A program made the translations under genes and the position numbers. 34,648 bases of DNA from an uncultured Bacilli bacterium (lineage in GTDB: Bacteria; Bacillota_I; Bacilli_A; RF39; UBA660). The notes beneath the pieces were generated by a model. That model saw only the letters and a program-made list of their open reading frames with translations, was not told the origin of the DNA and made no database searches. The stretch spans positions 1-34,648 of the forward strand of contig CALVXN010000006.1 in NCBI GenBank assembly GCA_944371315.1. The letters are read 5' to 3'. Below are positions 12,615-34,492 of this stretch, piece by piece. Every line of letters begins with the position of its first letter. Position 1 is the first letter of the stretch.

Positions 12615-14237
12615 TTGAAAAAAAACGAATTTATTGAAGGTGCGTTAATAGCAACAATAGCAATAATAATATCTAAAATTTTAGGTGTCCTATATGTAAT
12701 ACCTTTTTATAAAATTATTGGTGAAAATGGTGGATCTTTATATGGATATGCTTATAATATTTATAATTTCTTTTTAATAATTTCATCAGCTGGCATTCCA
12801 CTTGCGATAAGTAAAATTACAAGTGAATACAACACCTTAAATAAAAACAAAGAAAAAACATATATGTTTAAATATGCAAAAAAAATAATATTTATTTTTT
12901 CTATTATATGCTTTTTAATTTGCTTTTTGGGATCAACTATGATTGCAAATTCAATAGTTGGAAATTTAGAAGGTGGAAATACTGTAAGTGATGTATCTTT
13001 TGTTATAAAATGCGTTTCATTTGCAATACTTATAGTCCCAATACTATCTATATCAAGAGGCTACTTACAAGGTCACAGATATATTACTGCTCCATCAATA
13101 GGACAAGTAATAGAACAATTAGTTAGAGTTATAGTAATAGTTTTGGGAAGTTTTTTAGCACTAAAAATATTTAATTTAACAGTTGTTCAAGCCGTTGGAA
13201 TAGCAGTGTTTGGAGCATGTGCCGGAGCATTAGTATCCTACTTATATTTAATTATAAAAATGCACAAAGTTAAAGATAAAATATTTGTTCCAGAAGCTAA
13301 AATTGACAAAAACGAAAAGAAAATAATATTTAAAAAATTAATAGGATATTGTATTCCATTTATAGTAATAAATGCAGCAAATAGCATTTATAACACAATA
13401 GATATGATACTTGTAATAAATGGATTAAATAACTTAGGATTTAACGCAAATGATGTTGAAACAATAAGTAGTATATTTACAACATGGGGAAGTAAACTAG
13501 TTAGTGTAGTAACTGCAATAGCAACAGGATTAGTAATTAGCTTAATACCTTCAATAGTTGAGGCCTTTACTAAAAAAGACATGAAAGAAGTAAATTCACA
13601 ATTTAATAAAACAATTCAAGTATTACTATACGCAATTGCACCTTTATCAATTTTTTTAAGTATTTTTTCAAATGAAGTATGGACAATTTTTTATGGAAAA
13701 AGTTTTTATGGGCCATTAATATTTAAATATATTATTTTATTAGCAATAATGGATAGCGCTTACATAATGATATGTAGCGCCCTACAAGGATTAAGCAAAA
13801 CAAAATTAATATATACATCAGTAGCAACTGGCCTAATTACTAAAACAATTTTAGATTTACCACTTATGTATTTGTTTAACAATTTAGGGATATATCCATT
13901 TTATGGAGCTATTTTAGCATCAGCAACAGGTTATACTTTATCATTAGGAATTCCATTAATTACATTATGTAAAAAATATAAATTTAATTATAAACAAACA
14001 ATTAAATCAATACCAAGACTAGCTATATCAATTGCCATATTAGTTTTAATAGCAATTATAGTTAAAAATATTGTATTTAAATCAATAACTAATAAAATTT
14101 ACATGTTAATTGCTCTAGCAATTATAGGTCTAGTTCTAGGAGCTATATACTACTTAATGAATTATAAATTATTAAACGAACTTCTCGGTGATAAAATAAT
14201 AAACAAATTTAAAAAAAATAAGAAAATAAACGACTAA
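12615..14237 (+). CDS. MurJ/SpoVB-type lipid flippase
   Basis: A 540-residue polytopic membrane protein of the MVF/MATE-like polysaccharide flippase group, with about 14 hydrophobic helices along its length. The N-terminal segment (FIEGALIATIAIIISKILGV) and GGSLYGYAYNIYNFFLIISSAGIPLAISK match the YtgP/SpoVB group; B. subtilis YtgP is a MurJ-type lipid II flippase, SpoVB acts in spore cortex synthesis. Which of the two cannot be decided from sequence. The start is TTG, chosen because GGAG lies 10 bases upstream. The 3' end overlaps the convergent FemA/X-like gene by 4 bases inside a shared hairpin. Context (ligases for peptidoglycan side chains, FtsEX) supports a cell-wall role. Confidence 0.88.
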   Translation: MKKNEFIEGALIATIAIIISKILGVLYVIPFYKIIGENGGSLYGYAYNIYNFFLIISSAGIPLAISKITSEYNTLNKNKEKTYMFKYAKKIIFIFSIICFLICFLGSTMIANSIVGNLEGGNTVSDVSFVIKCVSFAILIVPILSISRGYLQGHRYITAPSIGQVIEQLVRVIVIVLGSFLALKIFNLTVVQAVGIAVFGACAGALVSYLYLIIKMHKVKDKIFVPEAKIDKNEKKIIFKKLIGYCIPFIVINAANSIYNTIDMILVINGLNNLGFNANDVETISSIFTTWGSKLVSVVTAIATGLVISLIPSIVEAFTKKDMKEVNSQFNKTIQVLLYAIAPLSIFLSIFSNEVWTIFYGKSFYGPLIFKYIILLAIMDSAYIMICSALQGLSKTKLIYTSVATGLITKTILDLPLMYLFNNLGIYPFYGAILASATGYTLSLGIPLITLCKKYKFNYKQTIKSIPRLAISIAILVLIAIIVKNIVFKSITNKIYMLIALAIIGLVLGAIYYLMNYKLLNELLGDKIINKFKKNKKIND

Positions 14238-14250
14238 TTTCTTATTTTTT
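14213..14250. terminator. Bidirectional terminator overlapping two stop codons
   Basis: A 13-base stem (14213-14225 with 14238-14250) around a 12-base loop. A and T runs make it work on both strands. Both convergent stop codons (of the flippase and the ligase) lie inside the loop/stem, so coding and termination signals share the same bases. Confidence 0.7.
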
Positions 14251-15493
14251 TTATAATTTTGTAAAATTTTAAACTCAACTTATAAATATAATAATAAAAA
14301 GGATTAATAATAAAATCAAATTCACCAATTAACTCGACAATTTCAGGATTAAAACCCTTTTTTATCTCATATATATGGTAATAAGGGTTATTTTTATCAA
14401 CATTACCAGATATTCCATAAAAATTAACATATTCTTTTTTTAATTTCAATGAATCAATTATATGTGCATTATAAAAAGCATACTTAGGATTAAAATCTTT
14501 ATATAATGGATCTATTCCACTCATAAAAGTAATTCCTTCATTACCAATAAACACCGACATTAAAGTTCCAATATTAATAATTTTTTGCTCTTCTTTCAAC
14601 TTCTTAGCATAATTTAATTCATTATTTAACTTATTTAATTTATTATTTAATTCATCTTCTCTTTTTTTAACTTTATTTCCAACATTAATTTTTTTAATTT
14701 GTTCATAAAAATTAAATAACTCTAAATTAACAGAATCAATTTCTTTTTTTATTAAGTTAAAATAAATATCAGTATCAATATAGACAATATATAGTTTAAT
14801 ATACTCATTCATTAAATCATACATTTTCTTATAATAATAACTAGGTCTTATAATAAAATTATTCTTAGAACCAGACTTTTTCAATAAATTAGTAAATAAT
14901 TCAATTTCATCACTATTTATATTTTTAATACAAACTCCATTATTTAAAGTTTTGTTAATATTTTTACGAGTATTTTTGGTAAATGAATTTAAAGTTTTAT
15001 CATAATCTTCGCTTAATTTAAACCTACATAAAAATCTTGGTTGCAATGTTTCAAAGTTTTCTGTCCAACCTATGTGTTTATATTTTAAATTTATAAAATT
15101 ATTATATATTTTATCTCCTACAGTCTTAACTAAATTTCCTTCTTTATCTCTAATGTTATAAATTACATTAGGATCTATTTTAAATAAAAATCCATTATGT
15201 TTTTTTACAAATTCTATAATATTATTATGAAATTCCTTTAATAAATTATAATTACTTACGTCAAACAAATAGCCTCTAGGAGAATAAAATAAACTTTTTT
15301 TAAAAGGCATTTGTTTTTCTAATAACATAGTAACACCAACTAAATTATTTTTATCATATAATCCTAATAAATAATAATTCCAATTAGTAATTTTTTTTAA
15401 TTCTCCCCACTCTGGTAATTGATAAATAGATATATAAGGACTTTTCATTGCAAATCTTTTATATTCTTCTTTACTAATAATTTTTAACTTCAT
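14234..15493 (-). CDS. FemA/FemX-like peptidoglycan bridge aminoacyltransferase
   Basis: A 419-residue member of the FemABX family, which adds amino acids from aminoacyl-tRNA to the lysine of lipid II. Seen: an N-terminal GNAT-like domain (QLPEWGELKK, FYSPRGYLFD), the central QPRFLCRFKL and KNTRKNINKTL, a two-helix coiled-coil arm (about 245-303, Lys/Glu/Asn-rich) and a second GNAT-like domain with VNFYGISGN and GFNPEIVELIGEFDF. The coiled-coil arm is present in FemA and MurM and contacts tRNA. Amino acid specificity cannot be read. It starts 4 bases inside the preceding paralogue (ATGA-type overlap), so the pair is co-translated. Confidence 0.88.
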   Translation of the reverse strand: MKLKIISKEEYKRFAMKSPYISIYQLPEWGELKKITNWNYYLLGLYDKNNLVGVTMLLEKQMPFKKSLFYSPRGYLFDVSNYNLLKEFHNNIIEFVKKHNGFLFKIDPNVIYNIRDKEGNLVKTVGDKIYNNFINLKYKHIGWTENFETLQPRFLCRFKLSEDYDKTLNSFTKNTRKNINKTLNNGVCIKNINSDEIELFTNLLKKSGSKNNFIIRPSYYYKKMYDLMNEYIKLYIVYIDTDIYFNLIKKEIDSVNLELFNFYEQIKKINVGNKVKKREDELNNKLNKLNNELNYAKKLKEEQKIINIGTLMSVFIGNEGITFMSGIDPLYKDFNPKYAFYNAHIIDSLKLKKEYVNFYGISGNVDKNNPYYHIYEIKKGFNPEIVELIGEFDFIINPFYYYIYKLSLKFYKIIKKIRN

Positions 15494-16716
15494 AATAACC
15501 TTCTTAACTTTCTATAGATTTTTAACATTATAGGAAGTAAATTATATAAAAATTTATTATTTATTAAATCAAATTCTCCAATAAATTCAATGTATTTATC
15601 CCCAAATTTCCTTTTAAAATCATGTAACTTTGCTAAATTTTTATAAGACGTATTAGGGTCACCAGGAGTTCCAAACAAATCGAAAAAATCATACTTTTGA
15701 TTATAAGCATCTTTTATTGCTTCATAATAACATCTCATAACTGCACATGTTTTATTCGATAATTCATTACCAGCTTGAAAAAAACTCCAAACTCTGTTAT
15801 TAGTTGAAATGCACACAATTGTACATATTATTTTTTTTTCATCATCGAATTTACTAAAAAAATTAAATTCATTTTCAAGTCTTTTTATTTTATCATTATA
15901 ATCACTAATTTTCTTTTTACTAACGTTAGTAATATTTTCTTTATACTCTTTTAATGTATTAAAAATTTTACTTTTTTGCTTTCCTAAATCAATGGAAACA
16001 TTAAAAAACTTTATATAATTTTTAAACACATTAATTAACGTTTGATAATAAAATTCATTATGAGGATCAAAATTATCCTTTTCACTGGTCCCCAATATTA
16101 ATTCATAAAACTCTGAAATATTAATCTCATTATTAATTTCTAAATCATATTGAAAACTCCTTTTTACAGATTGCAAAAATGATTTTGACATTTTTGACTC
16201 TATGTCTTCCCATTTTCTATTTAAATCAATCCTAAAAGTATATCGAGGTTGATTACCTTCATATAGTTTATAAAAGCCAGTATGCTTATAACCTAAATCT
16301 AACATATAATTATATAATTCATAATTATTATTGCCATTTTCAATGGGATTAGCATTTTCATCAATATCATGATATGGAATATCTGGATCAAATTTTATAT
16401 ATATAATTTTATTTTTCTTCATATAGTTTTTAATAGAATCTGTAAAAAAACTAATTAGTTCTTTATCAGTATAATCTAATATAAATCCTCTTGGAGAATA
16501 CCCATAACTAAAGCCAAATGGAGTTTTTTTTAACAAAATTAAGGCAGTTGCAATTAATTTATCATCATCATTTACTACACCTAAATATATTGGAATTTGC
16601 TTTTTAATTTTTTTACAAAAACATCCCCATTCATAAGTTTGTAAAAAATGACTTTTTTTATGATTAACTGTAAAATTTTGATATTCTTCTTTTTCAACAT
16701 TTTCTAAAAATCTCAT
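15490..16716 (-). CDS. FemA/FemX-like peptidoglycan bridge aminoacyltransferase
   Basis: A 408-residue paralogue of the next gene, same FemABX architecture: QTYEWGCFCKK and YSPRGFILDYT in the first GNAT-like domain, QPRYTFRIDLNRKWEDIESKM, a coiled-coil arm (about 245-295) and the C-terminal DFFDLFGTPGDPN plus FKRKFGDKYIEFIGEFD, close to the FemA/B consensus. First gene after the promoter at 16735-16763. I choose the ATG at 16716, behind AAGGTGGT, over the GTG at 16725. Two tandem paralogues would fit sequential addition of two residues to an interpeptide bridge. Confidence 0.88.
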   Translation of the reverse strand: MRFLENVEKEEYQNFTVNHKKSHFLQTYEWGCFCKKIKKQIPIYLGVVNDDDKLIATALILLKKTPFGFSYGYSPRGFILDYTDKELISFFTDSIKNYMKKNKIIYIKFDPDIPYHDIDENANPIENGNNNYELYNYMLDLGYKHTGFYKLYEGNQPRYTFRIDLNRKWEDIESKMSKSFLQSVKRSFQYDLEINNEINISEFYELILGTSEKDNFDPHNEFYYQTLINVFKNYIKFFNVSIDLGKQKSKIFNTLKEYKENITNVSKKKISDYNDKIKRLENEFNFFSKFDDEKKIICTIVCISTNNRVWSFFQAGNELSNKTCAVMRCYYEAIKDAYNQKYDFFDLFGTPGDPNTSYKNLAKLHDFKRKFGDKYIEFIGEFDLINNKFLYNLLPIMLKIYRKLRRLL

Positions 16717-16734
16717 AGATACCACCTTAGTAAG

Positions 16735-31699: not shown

Positions 31700-32221
31700 T
31701 TACTCACAAGTTGCTCCCATAGAAGTATAAATAGATTTAATACCTTCAACCGTTAATTTTCCATCTTTCATATATGATTTTAAAACTGGCTGATCTGTAA
31801 CAAATTGTTCTAAATCCATTTTTTTATAATCTATAAATACATCAGAAATAATTTCATTATCACTTCTAGTAATTTTATAAGTATATCCGCCATATGCATC
31901 ATTTGATGCGCTATATGTTGAATTTAAAGTATCCTCAAGAGTATCTAAAATACTTGATACATCAGAATCAACAACTTCTTTAGTATTTACGCTATCAACA
32001 AATTCACCAGTATAATTTATAGTATATGTCGATGTAAGTTCATAATTATTAACTACATCTTTAGAATATAAACTACAAGTAATACTGCCGCTTTTGTCAT
32101 TTATACTTTCTTGTTCTTTAATTTCATCATCATTATTTTTATCATCATTAATGTCCTTATTTTCAAAAAAACATCCAGTTAACATCAACATTCCAAATAA
32201 TAAAACAAATAACTTCTTCAC
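31700..32221 (-). CDS. Lipoprotein, DUF1307/YehR-like
   Basis: A 173-residue predicted lipoprotein with a signal peptide (KKLFVLLFGMLML) and lipobox LTGC, then an Asp/Asn/Lys/Glu-rich spacer and a small alpha/beta domain. The end (GYTYKITRSDNEIISDVFIDYKK and the last helix) resembles DUF1307 lipoproteins; the match is modest. Two further Cys (in TCSLYSK and near the C-terminus) could form a disulfide. The start is a GTG at 32221; a second GTG at 32230 is also in frame. The gene lies just 37 bases from the inverted repeat of the IS1182-like element, which probably cut its promoter. Confidence 0.7.
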   Translation of the reverse strand: MKKLFVLLFGMLMLTGCFFENKDINDDKNNDDEIKEQESINDKSGSITCSLYSKDVVNNYELTSTYTINYTGEFVDSVNTKEVVDSDVSSILDTLEDTLNSTYSASNDAYGGYTYKITRSDNEIISDVFIDYKKMDLEQFVTDQPVLKSYMKDGKLTVEGIKSIYTSMGATCE

Positions 32222-32243
32222 AACCTTCACATCCTACAAGAAA

Positions 32244-32273
32244 ATTATACAATAAAATAAAAGGGGATGTTAG
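32244..32273 (-). promoter_or_regulatory. Possible hybrid promoter across the IS end
   Basis: Minus strand TATAAT (32249-32244) lies in the host flank; the sequence 18 bases upstream, CTAACA (32273-32268), lies inside the IS inverted repeat and matches 4 of 6 bases of TTGACA. The insertion seems to have replaced the original -35. Confidence 0.4.
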
Positions 32274-32308
32274 AAAATAGATAATCTATTTTCTATACAT
32301 CTTCTTTT
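32258..32308. repeat. Left terminal inverted repeat of IS
   Basis: 51 bp, exact inverted copy of 33983-34033. It contains GGGGATG and an inner palindrome of 23 bases (AGAAAATAGAT, one centre base, ATCTATTTTCT; 32272-32294). Confidence 0.92.
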
Positions 32309-33896
32309 CTTTTGGCTTTACACCAAGAATAACTTCTTTTTGTAAACCAAATGGCCTATCCCAATAACTTTTCTTGATTAACTTTGGATTATCTAAGAGT
32401 TTAAATAATTTTCGTATATTAACGCCTAAACATTCTAACATAAATTCACACTCAACGCTATCCATGCCACGCCTTCTAAACCTTGTATAATTCATATTTT
32501 GTTTAATTTGTCCATACGTTCCTTCAACTTGTATACTTCTATTTATTCTAATTTCAATTCCATCTGGACTTAATAAGTTTTTTCTTGCCTCATCTTTATA
32601 AGTTTCATATTTAACACTTAATTCAGTCTTTCTAAAATCTTGGCTTTTGTCTTTCAAGTATTCCTTGCATTTATAAGAATATTTACAATTATCGCATCCT
32701 TCAAAAATATAAAATTTTGAATCTTTATATCTCGGATGAGTTTTAGTGAAAATATACTTTCCCACAATTCCATTTAGACATTTAAAATTACCATTACCAA
32801 AGAAAAATAATTGTGGTCTCTTTCCTGATGTTTCACCGTTCCAAGCCACAAATTTTAAATAATTTCCAATATTGTTCGTGTGTAAAAATTCATAATTTTT
32901 ATATATTCCATAACCAGAATCTCCACATAAATTAGTTGGATAATTACCATAGCCTTTTTTATATCTTTCTAACATTGGAATTAAAGTATTTTGATCATCT
33001 CGTTTTTGAAATACTCCATACATTGTTATCAATCCACTTGATACTATAACTTGAGTATTATATGCTGCATGAAAATCATGACTAAGTTTGGAATAGTAAT
33101 CTTCTTTTAAAACCATTGCTGTTGCATCTTTATCTGTTTTGTAGTAAGAATTTCTTTCTTCTCCACATATCCTTTCTTTTTCTTCATATTCAATTAACTT
33201 ATTTAAATATTCATATCCAGTTTTTATAATCCTTTGAGATACTGTTAGTCTTTTACCTTTACCTTGTGGAATATCATAATAATCTATATTATTTATATTA
33301 GCATAGTTTATAATTAACTCGTTAAACTCCTTTGCAGTAATATAATCAGTGTTTTCATACGAATAATTCATAATATTTATTAAATCTTTAATTTTAGAAT
33401 CTAATTTTTTGTGATATGATTTAGGGTTCCATACAAATTTATATTTGTTAGCATTTGCTTCTAATTTTGTTCCATCAATGTATTGATTATCAATATCTAT
33501 ATGATATTCTTTTATTATAGTGGAAGTAATTGTTGAAAATATTTCTAAAGAATAAGGTTTAATATATGTATTTATAAAATCACAAAAAGTAGCATAACTT
33601 GGTTCTTCTTGTTCTATTAAATATATAACCCTTAAATCTGTGTAACATAATTTTTCTAATTCTCTAACTGAACTCTTAAATTCAGAAAAACAATAAAGAA
33701 TAGTTGCCATCATATTATATGGATTATAGCTAGTTCTTCCTTTACATTTATTTTTGTTCTTATTTACACTTTCTATTATTTTGCAGATTTCAGATTTTTG
33801 TAATATTTCCATAAATTTATCTATTTTTTCAAATTCCTTATAGCATTGTATTGAAGGAAATTGAAAAAATGGCTTTTTTATAGTAAAATTATTCAT
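32286..33896 (-). CDS. IS1182-family DDE transposase
   Basis: A 536-residue transposase. Catalytic residues are Asp141 (YIDGTKLEANANKY), Asp326 (LCGDSGYG) and Glu458 (RSIQVEGTYGQIK), with the IS1182 hallmark E-A-N-A-N-K-Y after the first Asp and the C-terminal NMNYTRFRRRG. An N-terminal DUF772-like segment (GRTSYNPYNMMATILYCF) and a cysteine cluster (CDNCKYSYKC, 401-410) are present. I choose the ATG at 33896 (MNNFTIKK); the longer frame starts with GTG at 33932 inside an inverted-repeat arm. No frameshift or stop: probably functional. The 3' end lies within the inverted repeat. Confidence 0.92.
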   Translation of the reverse strand: MNNFTIKKPFFQFPSIQCYKEFEKIDKFMEILQKSEICKIIESVNKNKNKCKGRTSYNPYNMMATILYCFSEFKSSVRELEKLCYTDLRVIYLIEQEEPSYATFCDFINTYIKPYSLEIFSTITSTIIKEYHIDIDNQYIDGTKLEANANKYKFVWNPKSYHKKLDSKIKDLINIMNYSYENTDYITAKEFNELIINYANINNIDYYDIPQGKGKRLTVSQRIIKTGYEYLNKLIEYEEKERICGEERNSYYKTDKDATAMVLKEDYYSKLSHDFHAAYNTQVIVSSGLITMYGVFQKRDDQNTLIPMLERYKKGYGNYPTNLCGDSGYGIYKNYEFLHTNNIGNYLKFVAWNGETSGKRPQLFFFGNGNFKCLNGIVGKYIFTKTHPRYKDSKFYIFEGCDNCKYSYKCKEYLKDKSQDFRKTELSVKYETYKDEARKNLLSPDGIEIRINRSIQVEGTYGQIKQNMNYTRFRRRGMDSVECEFMLECLGVNIRKLFKLLDNPKLIKKSYWDRPFGLQKEVILGVKPKEKKMYRK

Positions 33897-33933
33897 GTGA
33901 TACCAACTTTCTAGACAAAAGTATTGTATCACA
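33896..33933 (-). repeat. Inverted repeat overlapping transposase start
   Basis: TGTGATAC (minus 33933-33926) and GTATCACA (33903-33896), 22 bases apart; the second arm reaches the A of the ATG. The first arm overlaps a candidate -10 (TACAAT, 33929-33924), so only read-through RNA would contain both arms. Confidence 0.6.
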
Positions 33934-33972
33934 AAAACCCATAAACTTACGAGTTTATGGGACTTTTTATTT
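33934..33972. terminator. Bidirectional terminator inside the IS
   Basis: CCCATAAACT and AGTTTATGGG (33938-33961) around a TACG loop, with T-runs on both strands (GGGTTTTTG on minus, GGGACTTTTT on plus). It shields the transposase gene from outside transcription and stops plus-strand transcription. Confidence 0.85.
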
Positions 33973-33982
33973 ATTAAATTAA

Positions 33983-34033
33983 AAAAGAAGATGTATAGAA
34001 AATAGATTATCTATTTTCTAACATCCCCTTTTA
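33983..34033. repeat. Right terminal inverted repeat of IS
   Basis: Exact inverted copy of 32258-32308; same inner palindrome. It ends about 5 bases from the stop codon of the 61-aa gene. Confidence 0.92.
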
Positions 34034-34037
34034 AAAT

Positions 34038-34223
34038 TTAATTGTCAATTGTTTTCCATTCAGTAGTTCCACATTTTGTACATATTTTAGGAGCCAATAT
34101 TTTCTTACCCTTAGGTAATTTCATATCAGTATCTATTTTACTACATAAAATACCACTTTCTTCATCAATATATGCTATTCCAAATTTAGCATCTTTACAG
34201 CAATCACAATTAGCGTTTTTCAT
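34038..34223 (-). CDS. Small cysteine-rich protein, possible zinc ribbon
   Basis: A 61-residue protein I do not recognise. Cys residues are arranged as C-x-C-C near the N-terminus (NCDCCKD), a single Cys in the middle and C-x-x-C near the C-terminus (KICTKCGTTEWK), which would fit a zinc ribbon. I choose the ATG at 34223 (MKNANCD), since GGAGG precedes it at 8 bases; the ATG at 34238 would place the SD in the gene. Preceded by the 71-aa gene with a 53-base gap. Confidence 0.65.
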   Translation of the reverse strand: MKNANCDCCKDAKFGIAYIDEESGILCSKIDTDMKLPKGKKILAPKICTKCGTTEWKTIDN

Positions 34224-34276
34224 AAAATAATCCTCCATAATTATTATGAGATAATTTTACAAAAATATGTATCAAA

Positions 34277-34492
34277 TTACCTTATTACATTATTAGGTAA
34301 TCCAACTTCTTGTTGTTCAGAAAACTCTCTATTTAATGCTAAACCTAATAATTCTTCGACCTTTAAAGCAGCACTTTTTCTAACTTCATCCGAATACATT
34401 GGACTATTTACTACATTAGTCAAGCTATTAACAAGCAACATTGTCTCTAAACTATCAAGCTTTGCTTTAAGTTCTATTATAGCTTCATTCAT
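34277..34492 (-). CDS. Small hypothetical protein, 71 aa
   Basis: I do not recognise this protein. It is acidic and mostly helical: a first helix (about 1-30, AIIELKAKLDSLETMLLVNSL) and a second (about 36-60). There is no membrane segment, signal or cysteine. The ribosome binding site is strong (GGAGG, 8 bases before the ATG). It lies between a terminator (34531-34558) and the Cys-rich gene, so the two may share a transcript. Confidence 0.6.
   Translation of the reverse strand: MNEAIIELKAKLDSLETMLLVNSLTNVVNSPMYSDEVRKSAALKVEELLGLALNREFSEQQEVGLPNNVIR

Follow-up and report, generated by a model that had tools for sequence, protein, structure and literature searches.

How does an insertion sequence that lies directly behind a gene keep its transposase silent when transcripts of that gene run on into it? 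The question is raised by an IS1182-like insertion sequence on contig CALVXN010000006.1 (assembly GCA_944371315.1) of an uncultured Bacilli bacterium, of which positions 1 to 34,648 were analyzed (the window). The element (32258–34033, minus strand) is complete and lies near the window's end between perfect terminal inverted repeats of 51 bp (32258–32308 and 33983–34033; arms 100% complementary). Its transposase gene (32286–33896, minus strand) begins with an ATG at 33896–33894 and has its stop codon within the right inverted repeat. A co-directional reading frame of 61 amino acids (34038–34223, minus strand) ends with its stop codon (34040–34038) 4 bases before the element, and a second co-directional open reading frame (ORF; 31700–32230) lies on the far side; read-through into the transposase gene is therefore to be expected. 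In IS10 and IS50, silencing strikes read-through RNA alone, because an arm lying before the native start pairs with the ribosome-binding region; a preliminary description of the present element had proposed the same logic. The proposal gains support at the level of sequence and evolution, from pairing in the window and compensating changes in relatives. We show by sequence comparison and predicted folding that a hairpin between the -10 region and the bases beside the ATG can form and that compensating changes in relatives preserve its pairing; this hairpin quite probably guards the transposase gene against read-through transcripts.

The transposase start region and its predicted folding

Read from the outside inward on the minus strand, the start region consists of a terminator-like hairpin, two complementary arms and the ATG. 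The hairpin, with 10 pairs (33938–33961), was found on both strands by a terminator and promoter scan of 32200–34300 (two found, against 0.3 expected from shuffles). Arm 1, TGTGATAC (33926–33933), overlaps the -10 element TACAAT (33923–33928), which carries an extended TGTG at 33933–33930; TGTGATACAAT fits the Gram-positive extended -10 (TRTGnTATAAT), and the same scan reported no -35/-10 pair using this TACAAT. Arm 2, GTATCACA (33896–33903), reaches the start codon, its final base being the A of the ATG. A weak Shine-Dalgarno-like AGAAAG (33907–33912) precedes it, with AAGGAG or GAAAGAAG in many relatives. The layout of a bidirectional terminator, a first arm on TACAAT and a second arm at the ATG, as given in the preliminary description, is confirmed. 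A GTG at 33932 is a possible alternative opening of the ORF, but its frame hits a TGA ahead of the ATG in relatives such as L015, and the ATG at 33896 was therefore taken as the start.

RNA folding of 33965–33860 yielded both the arms' hairpin and the terminator hairpin at -26.8 kcal/mol, an energy as low as none of 200 dinucleotide shuffles (z -3.97), in agreement with the fold-back that had been proposed. The outer 8-bp stem runs on into an inner 6-bp stem with the loop GTCTA (33906–33922; ACTTTT/GAAAGT in the DNA, ACUUUU/GAAAGU in the RNA). As an illustration only, since the lengths differ, 40 coding bases give a fold of -4.1 kcal/mol together with 22 leader bases and of -27.4 kcal/mol together with 72 upstream bases, the predicted native mRNA beginning two bases later than the shorter of these, at G33916. 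Each arm core occurs a single time in the whole element, at the transposase start and not at the other end.

From these parts, we infer the native start site, read-through transcription and reduced translation as follows. The native transcript would start at about 33916, beyond arm 1 and the inner arm, and would form no hairpin, allowing low basal translation. RNA from outside, here from the 61-aa frame, would meet the terminal-repeat hairpin with its T-tract and then the inner hairpin; RNA escaping both would carry arm 1, fold on arm 2 and hide the ribosome site and the AUG. With the -10 hexamer as the basis of arm 1, changes in the promoter would have to be matched in arm 2, hence the covariation seen in relatives.

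Pairing between the arms in relatives

In the near clade (labeled f1; the window and the usable loci up to L047, minus L013), transposase identity to the window is 46–97%, and the start region runs from TGTGATACAAT through a variable stretch that holds a Shine-Dalgarno-like motif to GTATCAC and ATG. The core GTGATAC/GTATCAC and the TACAAT are present in all 28 distinct elements, the window included. Pairing was scored as the longest Watson-Crick run between positions -50 to -18 and the last nine leader bases plus the A, and 251 first-ATG starts of other ORFs of at least 100 aa, in the window and the loci, served as controls. A run of at least 8 contiguous pairs was found in 28/28 near-clade elements versus 2/251 control starts, one of the two (in L092) being an upstream ATG inside a transposase leader region; at least 6 pairs were reached by 26 of the 251 controls. 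The 28 other elements of the set showed runs of at least 6 in 18 cases and of at least 8 in eight. Over 26 near-clade elements, seven of the eight predicted pairs are kept in 26/26 and the outermost in 25/26. A G seven bases after the -10 is conserved in 27/28 near-clade elements and in 9/9 of family f21; in five elements of family f7 a G is the eighth base after the -10. The position of this G in the alignments places the predicted native start (33916) beyond arm 1.

The preliminary description had named non-conserved arms in relatives as an outcome that would speak against the fold-back. Instead, the near-clade cores show no change, and in two further clades the letters have changed yet remain complementary. 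Arms in f7 (13 loci of the family itself and, where noted, L013) include GTACAATA/TATTGTAC, AGAATAC/GTATTCT, AAAATATC/GATATTTT and CAATATC/GATATTG. The f21 arms are centered on the -10 (for example, GTAAAAT/ATTTTAC, TAGAAT/ATTCTA and GGTAAA/TTTACC), and in a subgroup (L059, L119, L122 and, less clearly, L124) CACC-type bases upstream of the -10 pair with the Shine-Dalgarno sequence. Among 14 f7 rows, L013 included, 84.3% of cells are paired versus 78.6 ± 1.2 in shuffles that take no account of relatedness (0/500), seven cells are changed on both sides (0/500 shuffles), and slid registers pair at 24–59%. The nine f21 rows gave, under shuffles of the same kind, 85.2% paired cells (1/500) and six double-changed cells (1/500). 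The third base of the -10 is paired with its partner near the ATG in 14/14 f7 rows (CG 10, AU 2, GC 1, UA 1), and the same base is paired in 9/9 f21 rows (AU 4, GC 3, UA 2). This base is a loosely specified one in the hexamer, which lets the promoter drift at this point, with arm 2 changing to match.

When arm 2 was exchanged between 24 distinct elements, the mean longest run fell from 6.75 to 4.66 ± 0.28, with 0/20,000 permutations reaching the native value, and the duplex energy of 27 distinct arms was -9.8 natively versus -6.8 ± 0.5 when permuted (0/20,000). Covariation of the two arms, which the preliminary description had suggested looking for in relatives, is borne out by the double changes in f7 and f21 and by the swaps; as in IS10 and IS50, an arm beside the transposase start is complementary to one upstream of the native start, and compensating changes are present.

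Two groups behaved differently. In a short-leader group of 22 elements, no more than about 10 bases separate a -10-like hexamer from the start (exactly 6 in 17/21), and the transposase mRNA may be leaderless. The arm swap in 16 distinct short-leader elements gave 4.00 versus 3.83 permuted (5222/20,000), two elements reaching 6 and one of these 8; duplex energy showed a slight trend (259/5000). Six plasmid IS1182-type copies (L085–L090), from Finegoldia, Kurthia, two staphylococci, Lactiplantibacillus and Paenibacillus, gave 3.83 versus 3.84, and none of them reaches 6, which indicates that the fold-back marks a subgroup and not the whole IS1182 family. L085 was counted in both groups of this run-length swap, and the choice of start is uncertain for L061, L070 (GTG) and L090. 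In the short-leader elements (L060–L079, L085, L120), the -10-like hexamer stands directly behind a hairpin (20/20 examined).

The relatives were obtained by a scan of genome contigs (12 loci) and then by protein or profile searches. Matches were found in 36/385 genomes of the order, 67/395 of the class, 50/392 of the phylum (largely the same genomes as for the class), 22/196 of family f7 and 14/55 of family f21, and a scan of viral contigs confirmed no relative. In total, 87 start regions including the window's were collected; compared over their last 60 bases, 84 are distinct. Loci lacking the N-terminus were dropped, as were duplicates of the window (L006, L009), of earlier loci (L018–L021, L026) and of one another (L032/L033; L091, as L053; L114, L125 and L133, as L057, L059 and L122); L048–L051 repeat known places. 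L013, with 52 upstream bases only, was used in the f7 alignment that shows the G after the -10, in the f7 pair count, in the run-length arm swap and among the other elements of the control-start test, and was kept out of the duplex-energy and openness tests. L095, with no recognized -10, was left out of the duplex-energy leader set and the openness test.

Outer hairpins and the weighing of explanations

Outside the arms, both terminal inverted repeats are near-perfect palindromes followed by inward T-tracts. The left hairpin (33990–34025, minus strand, -15.6 kcal/mol) is followed by TTCTTTTTT (33981–33989, minus strand), and the right repeat carries a mirror hairpin with its T-tract (32266–32308, plus strand), which faces inward too. 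In 26 distinct near-clade left ends (26 of 29 loci; in L011, L014 and L032 the search pattern recognized no tip), the hairpin, made of other letters in the relatives, has 10–16 pairs and, in 25/26, at least 7 T in the next 10 bases. Native left-end halves pair at -11.4 versus -6.4 ± 0.6 when mixed between elements (0/20,000), and the right end, located by its first 10 bases in 20 elements, folds at -6.7 to -16.0 kcal/mol. We read the repeats at both ends as putative inward terminators, termination being predicted from hairpin and T-tract.

The inner hairpin differs in sequence in each of 28 near-clade elements, and in 3/28 it is weaker than -5 kcal/mol. Its halves pair at -10.9 natively versus -4.5 ± 0.7 when permuted (0/20,000), and none of 84 base-shuffled regions reached the real mean of -9.2. 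Its T-tracts hold 5.93/8 T outward versus 4.54/8 inward (Wilcoxon p 0.0002, n = 28, relatedness uncorrected); these counts used G/C-closed stems, and stems extended by A-U pairs also gave more T outward than inward. In the outward direction, the f21 inner hairpin (L116:1437–1459) has the sequence GCTCCGGGTTCGATTCCCCGAGC; its loop is the 7-base TTCGATT, and T's follow. The same 23 bases occur in L052, L118, L123 and L128, and the core GGGAATCGAACCC also in L117 and L126, but not in L054 or L083. The TTCGATT loop resembles a tRNA T-arm; ARAGORN, run on nine f21 loci, found no tRNA gene around this hairpin and, in L054, a single tmRNA gene that lies outside the element.

Several observations weigh against the fold-back as a guard. 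Arm 1 conservation is accounted for by the promoter by itself, and RNAalifold found no covariation in the near clade, owing to its constant arm cores. The disregard of relatedness in the pair-count shuffles counts here as well; moreover, neither the number of pairs with any double change (f7 26/500; f21 87/500) nor the number of pair types (f7 299/500; f21 342/500) goes beyond those shuffles. Only 17/24 distinct arm-2 types reach a run of 6, as do 21% of swapped pairs, and L055 has no clear fold-back (run 4). At positions -15 to +3, read-through RNA is predicted to be less open than native RNA in 47/54 elements (near clade 28/28), but not in L052, L054, L116, L118 and L128 of f21 or in L057 and L094 of f7, and in L116 openness rises from 0.25 to 0.83. 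The drop is also unspecific, since it appears in 21/21 short-leader and 4/5 plasmid-type elements, so that this modeled measure lends the fold-back weak support. Finally, pure read-through protection does not explain why the outward T-tract of the inner hairpin is the better kept one, which leaves room for an outward or antisense transcript.

Such a transcript would be an antisense RNA similar to RNA-OUT of IS10, running on the plus strand from the first transposase codons outward through both arms to the inner hairpin and pairing with the mRNA start, with the arms as its own stem; it may coexist with the fold-back. Besides the T-tract bias in the near clade, a plus-strand promoter-like TTGAAA-17-TAAAAT (33861–33889) is directed at the inner hairpin and could yield a 70-nt RNA, and codons 1–10 show 0.85 identical codons among identical residues versus 0.57–0.82 in later ten-codon blocks (25 sequences). 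However, codons 21–30 are nearly as high (0.82), and a single promoter match means little when the same scan held 23 such sites against 16.5 ± 4.0 expected. Its -35 is not kept (codons 11–12 vary), and its -10-like TAAAAT lies on conserved coding letters. Rfam BTnc005 over 33879–33967 reached only 26.4 bits where its gathering score is 174.8; it is one of five Rfam matches on 32200–34100, every one under the gathering score. A mirrored promoter in arm 2 was set aside, the antisense strand showing TACATC, TACAAC, TACCAA or two other hexamers there, with the final T of a -10 absent in 28/28. Taken together, an antisense RNA is an unlikely account of the arms.

Another reading is a DNA operator that covers the -10 and is bound by the transposase or a host regulator; in its favor, the arms are an inverted repeat that lies across the promoter. 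Protein binding should require constant letters and a constant geometry, but the spacing of the cores takes the values 21, 22 and 24 within the near clade and is smaller in other elements (the loop of L054 has 6 bases), and arm letters differ between clades while complementarity is kept. The operator was set aside on spacing and letters and appears very improbable. Chance pairing of an A+T-rich promoter with an A+T-rich leader has in its favor that short complements are common, as the 26 of 251 control starts reaching 6 show. Yet it is contradicted by the control starts (28/28 versus 2/251 at 8 or more pairs, relatedness uncorrected), by the arm permutations (0/20,000), by the f7 pair counts and by the double changes in f7 and f21, and can practically be dismissed.

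The element, its surroundings and known systems

The transposase matches Pfam DDE_Tnp_1_6 (8.2e-24) and, over residues 49–500 of 536, NCBIfam IS1182 (NF033551; E 1.8e-62). The preliminary description as an IS1182-like or IS1182-type element agrees with this near full-length match and with the 51-bp terminal repeats; the score of 211.9 bits stays under the cut-off of 270, and we therefore call the element IS1182-like. The relatives L013 and L015 likewise score under this cut-off. No second full copy was found in the 1.09-Mb, 58-contig assembly. The sole other clear trace found there is a transposase-gene fragment of about 70% identity with in-frame stops (contig 34:2786–2964). The 61-aa frame next to the element contains six cysteines, two of them as CxxC. 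Farther away in the window, two neighboring genes at 14234–16725 encode proteins of 419 and 411 aa that are similar by eye, possible candidates for Fem-type peptidoglycan-bridge enzymes.

Staphylococcal IS1272/TnSha1 of the IS1182 family inserts in terminator hairpins (PMC4923244), which would make read-through a standing problem for such elements. Our element probably belongs to the same broad transposase family; however, a fold-back is not described in the available excerpt of that paper, and the plasmid IS1182-type copies L085–L090 lack a run of 6. A wider scheme is possible, though in our judgment doubtful: in a terminator-targeting IS family, each terminal repeat would act as an inward intrinsic terminator that restores the host termination lost by insertion and shields the transposase, a two-way terminator would end an antisense RNA, the fold-back arm would lie on the -10, and promoter and translational lock would evolve together. 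Among the matches listed from the open-licence literature, titles and abstract openings mention no fold-back control in IS1182-like elements, and the available part of PMC4265352 holds nothing about read-through.

In ISPpu9 of Pseudomonas putida, the normal transposase mRNA is described as carrying a structure in its 5'-UTR (untranslated region), with an antisense RNA proposed to open this structure (PMC8450116, excerpt). There, as predicted here, structure in the transposase mRNA hides the ribosome site, and ISPpu9 lies in palindromic repeats (same excerpt), whereas the normal mRNA of our element should lack the structure. The antisense RNA-OUT of IS10 is given as 69 nt long, with its first 35 nt complementary to the start of the transposase mRNA (PMC5006887, excerpt). 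The possible outward promoter and the terminator near our element's outer end, spanning the transposase start, resemble that arrangement (same excerpt); unlike RNA-OUT, the antisense RNA here is only predicted, the -35 of its putative promoter is not kept, and the evidence favors the fold-back as the role of the arms.

The 56 distinct start regions, mostly from one bacterial class, serve as a compensatory-mutation experiment done by nature, with base-by-base coupling between the -10 hexamer and the predicted translation lock. They suggest how elements landing right behind genes escape activation by their neighbors and offer a sequence signature for seeking the same guard in other IS families. 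To our knowledge, two enteric elements are known to silence read-through transposase RNA by a fold-back. Like IS10 and IS50, the element described here has an upstream arm that is predicted to pair near the transposase start and to silence read-through RNA only; unlike them, it belongs to another transposase family, its arm 1 overlaps the -10, its arm 2 directly adjoins the ATG, and outside both arms there are hairpins with T-tracts.
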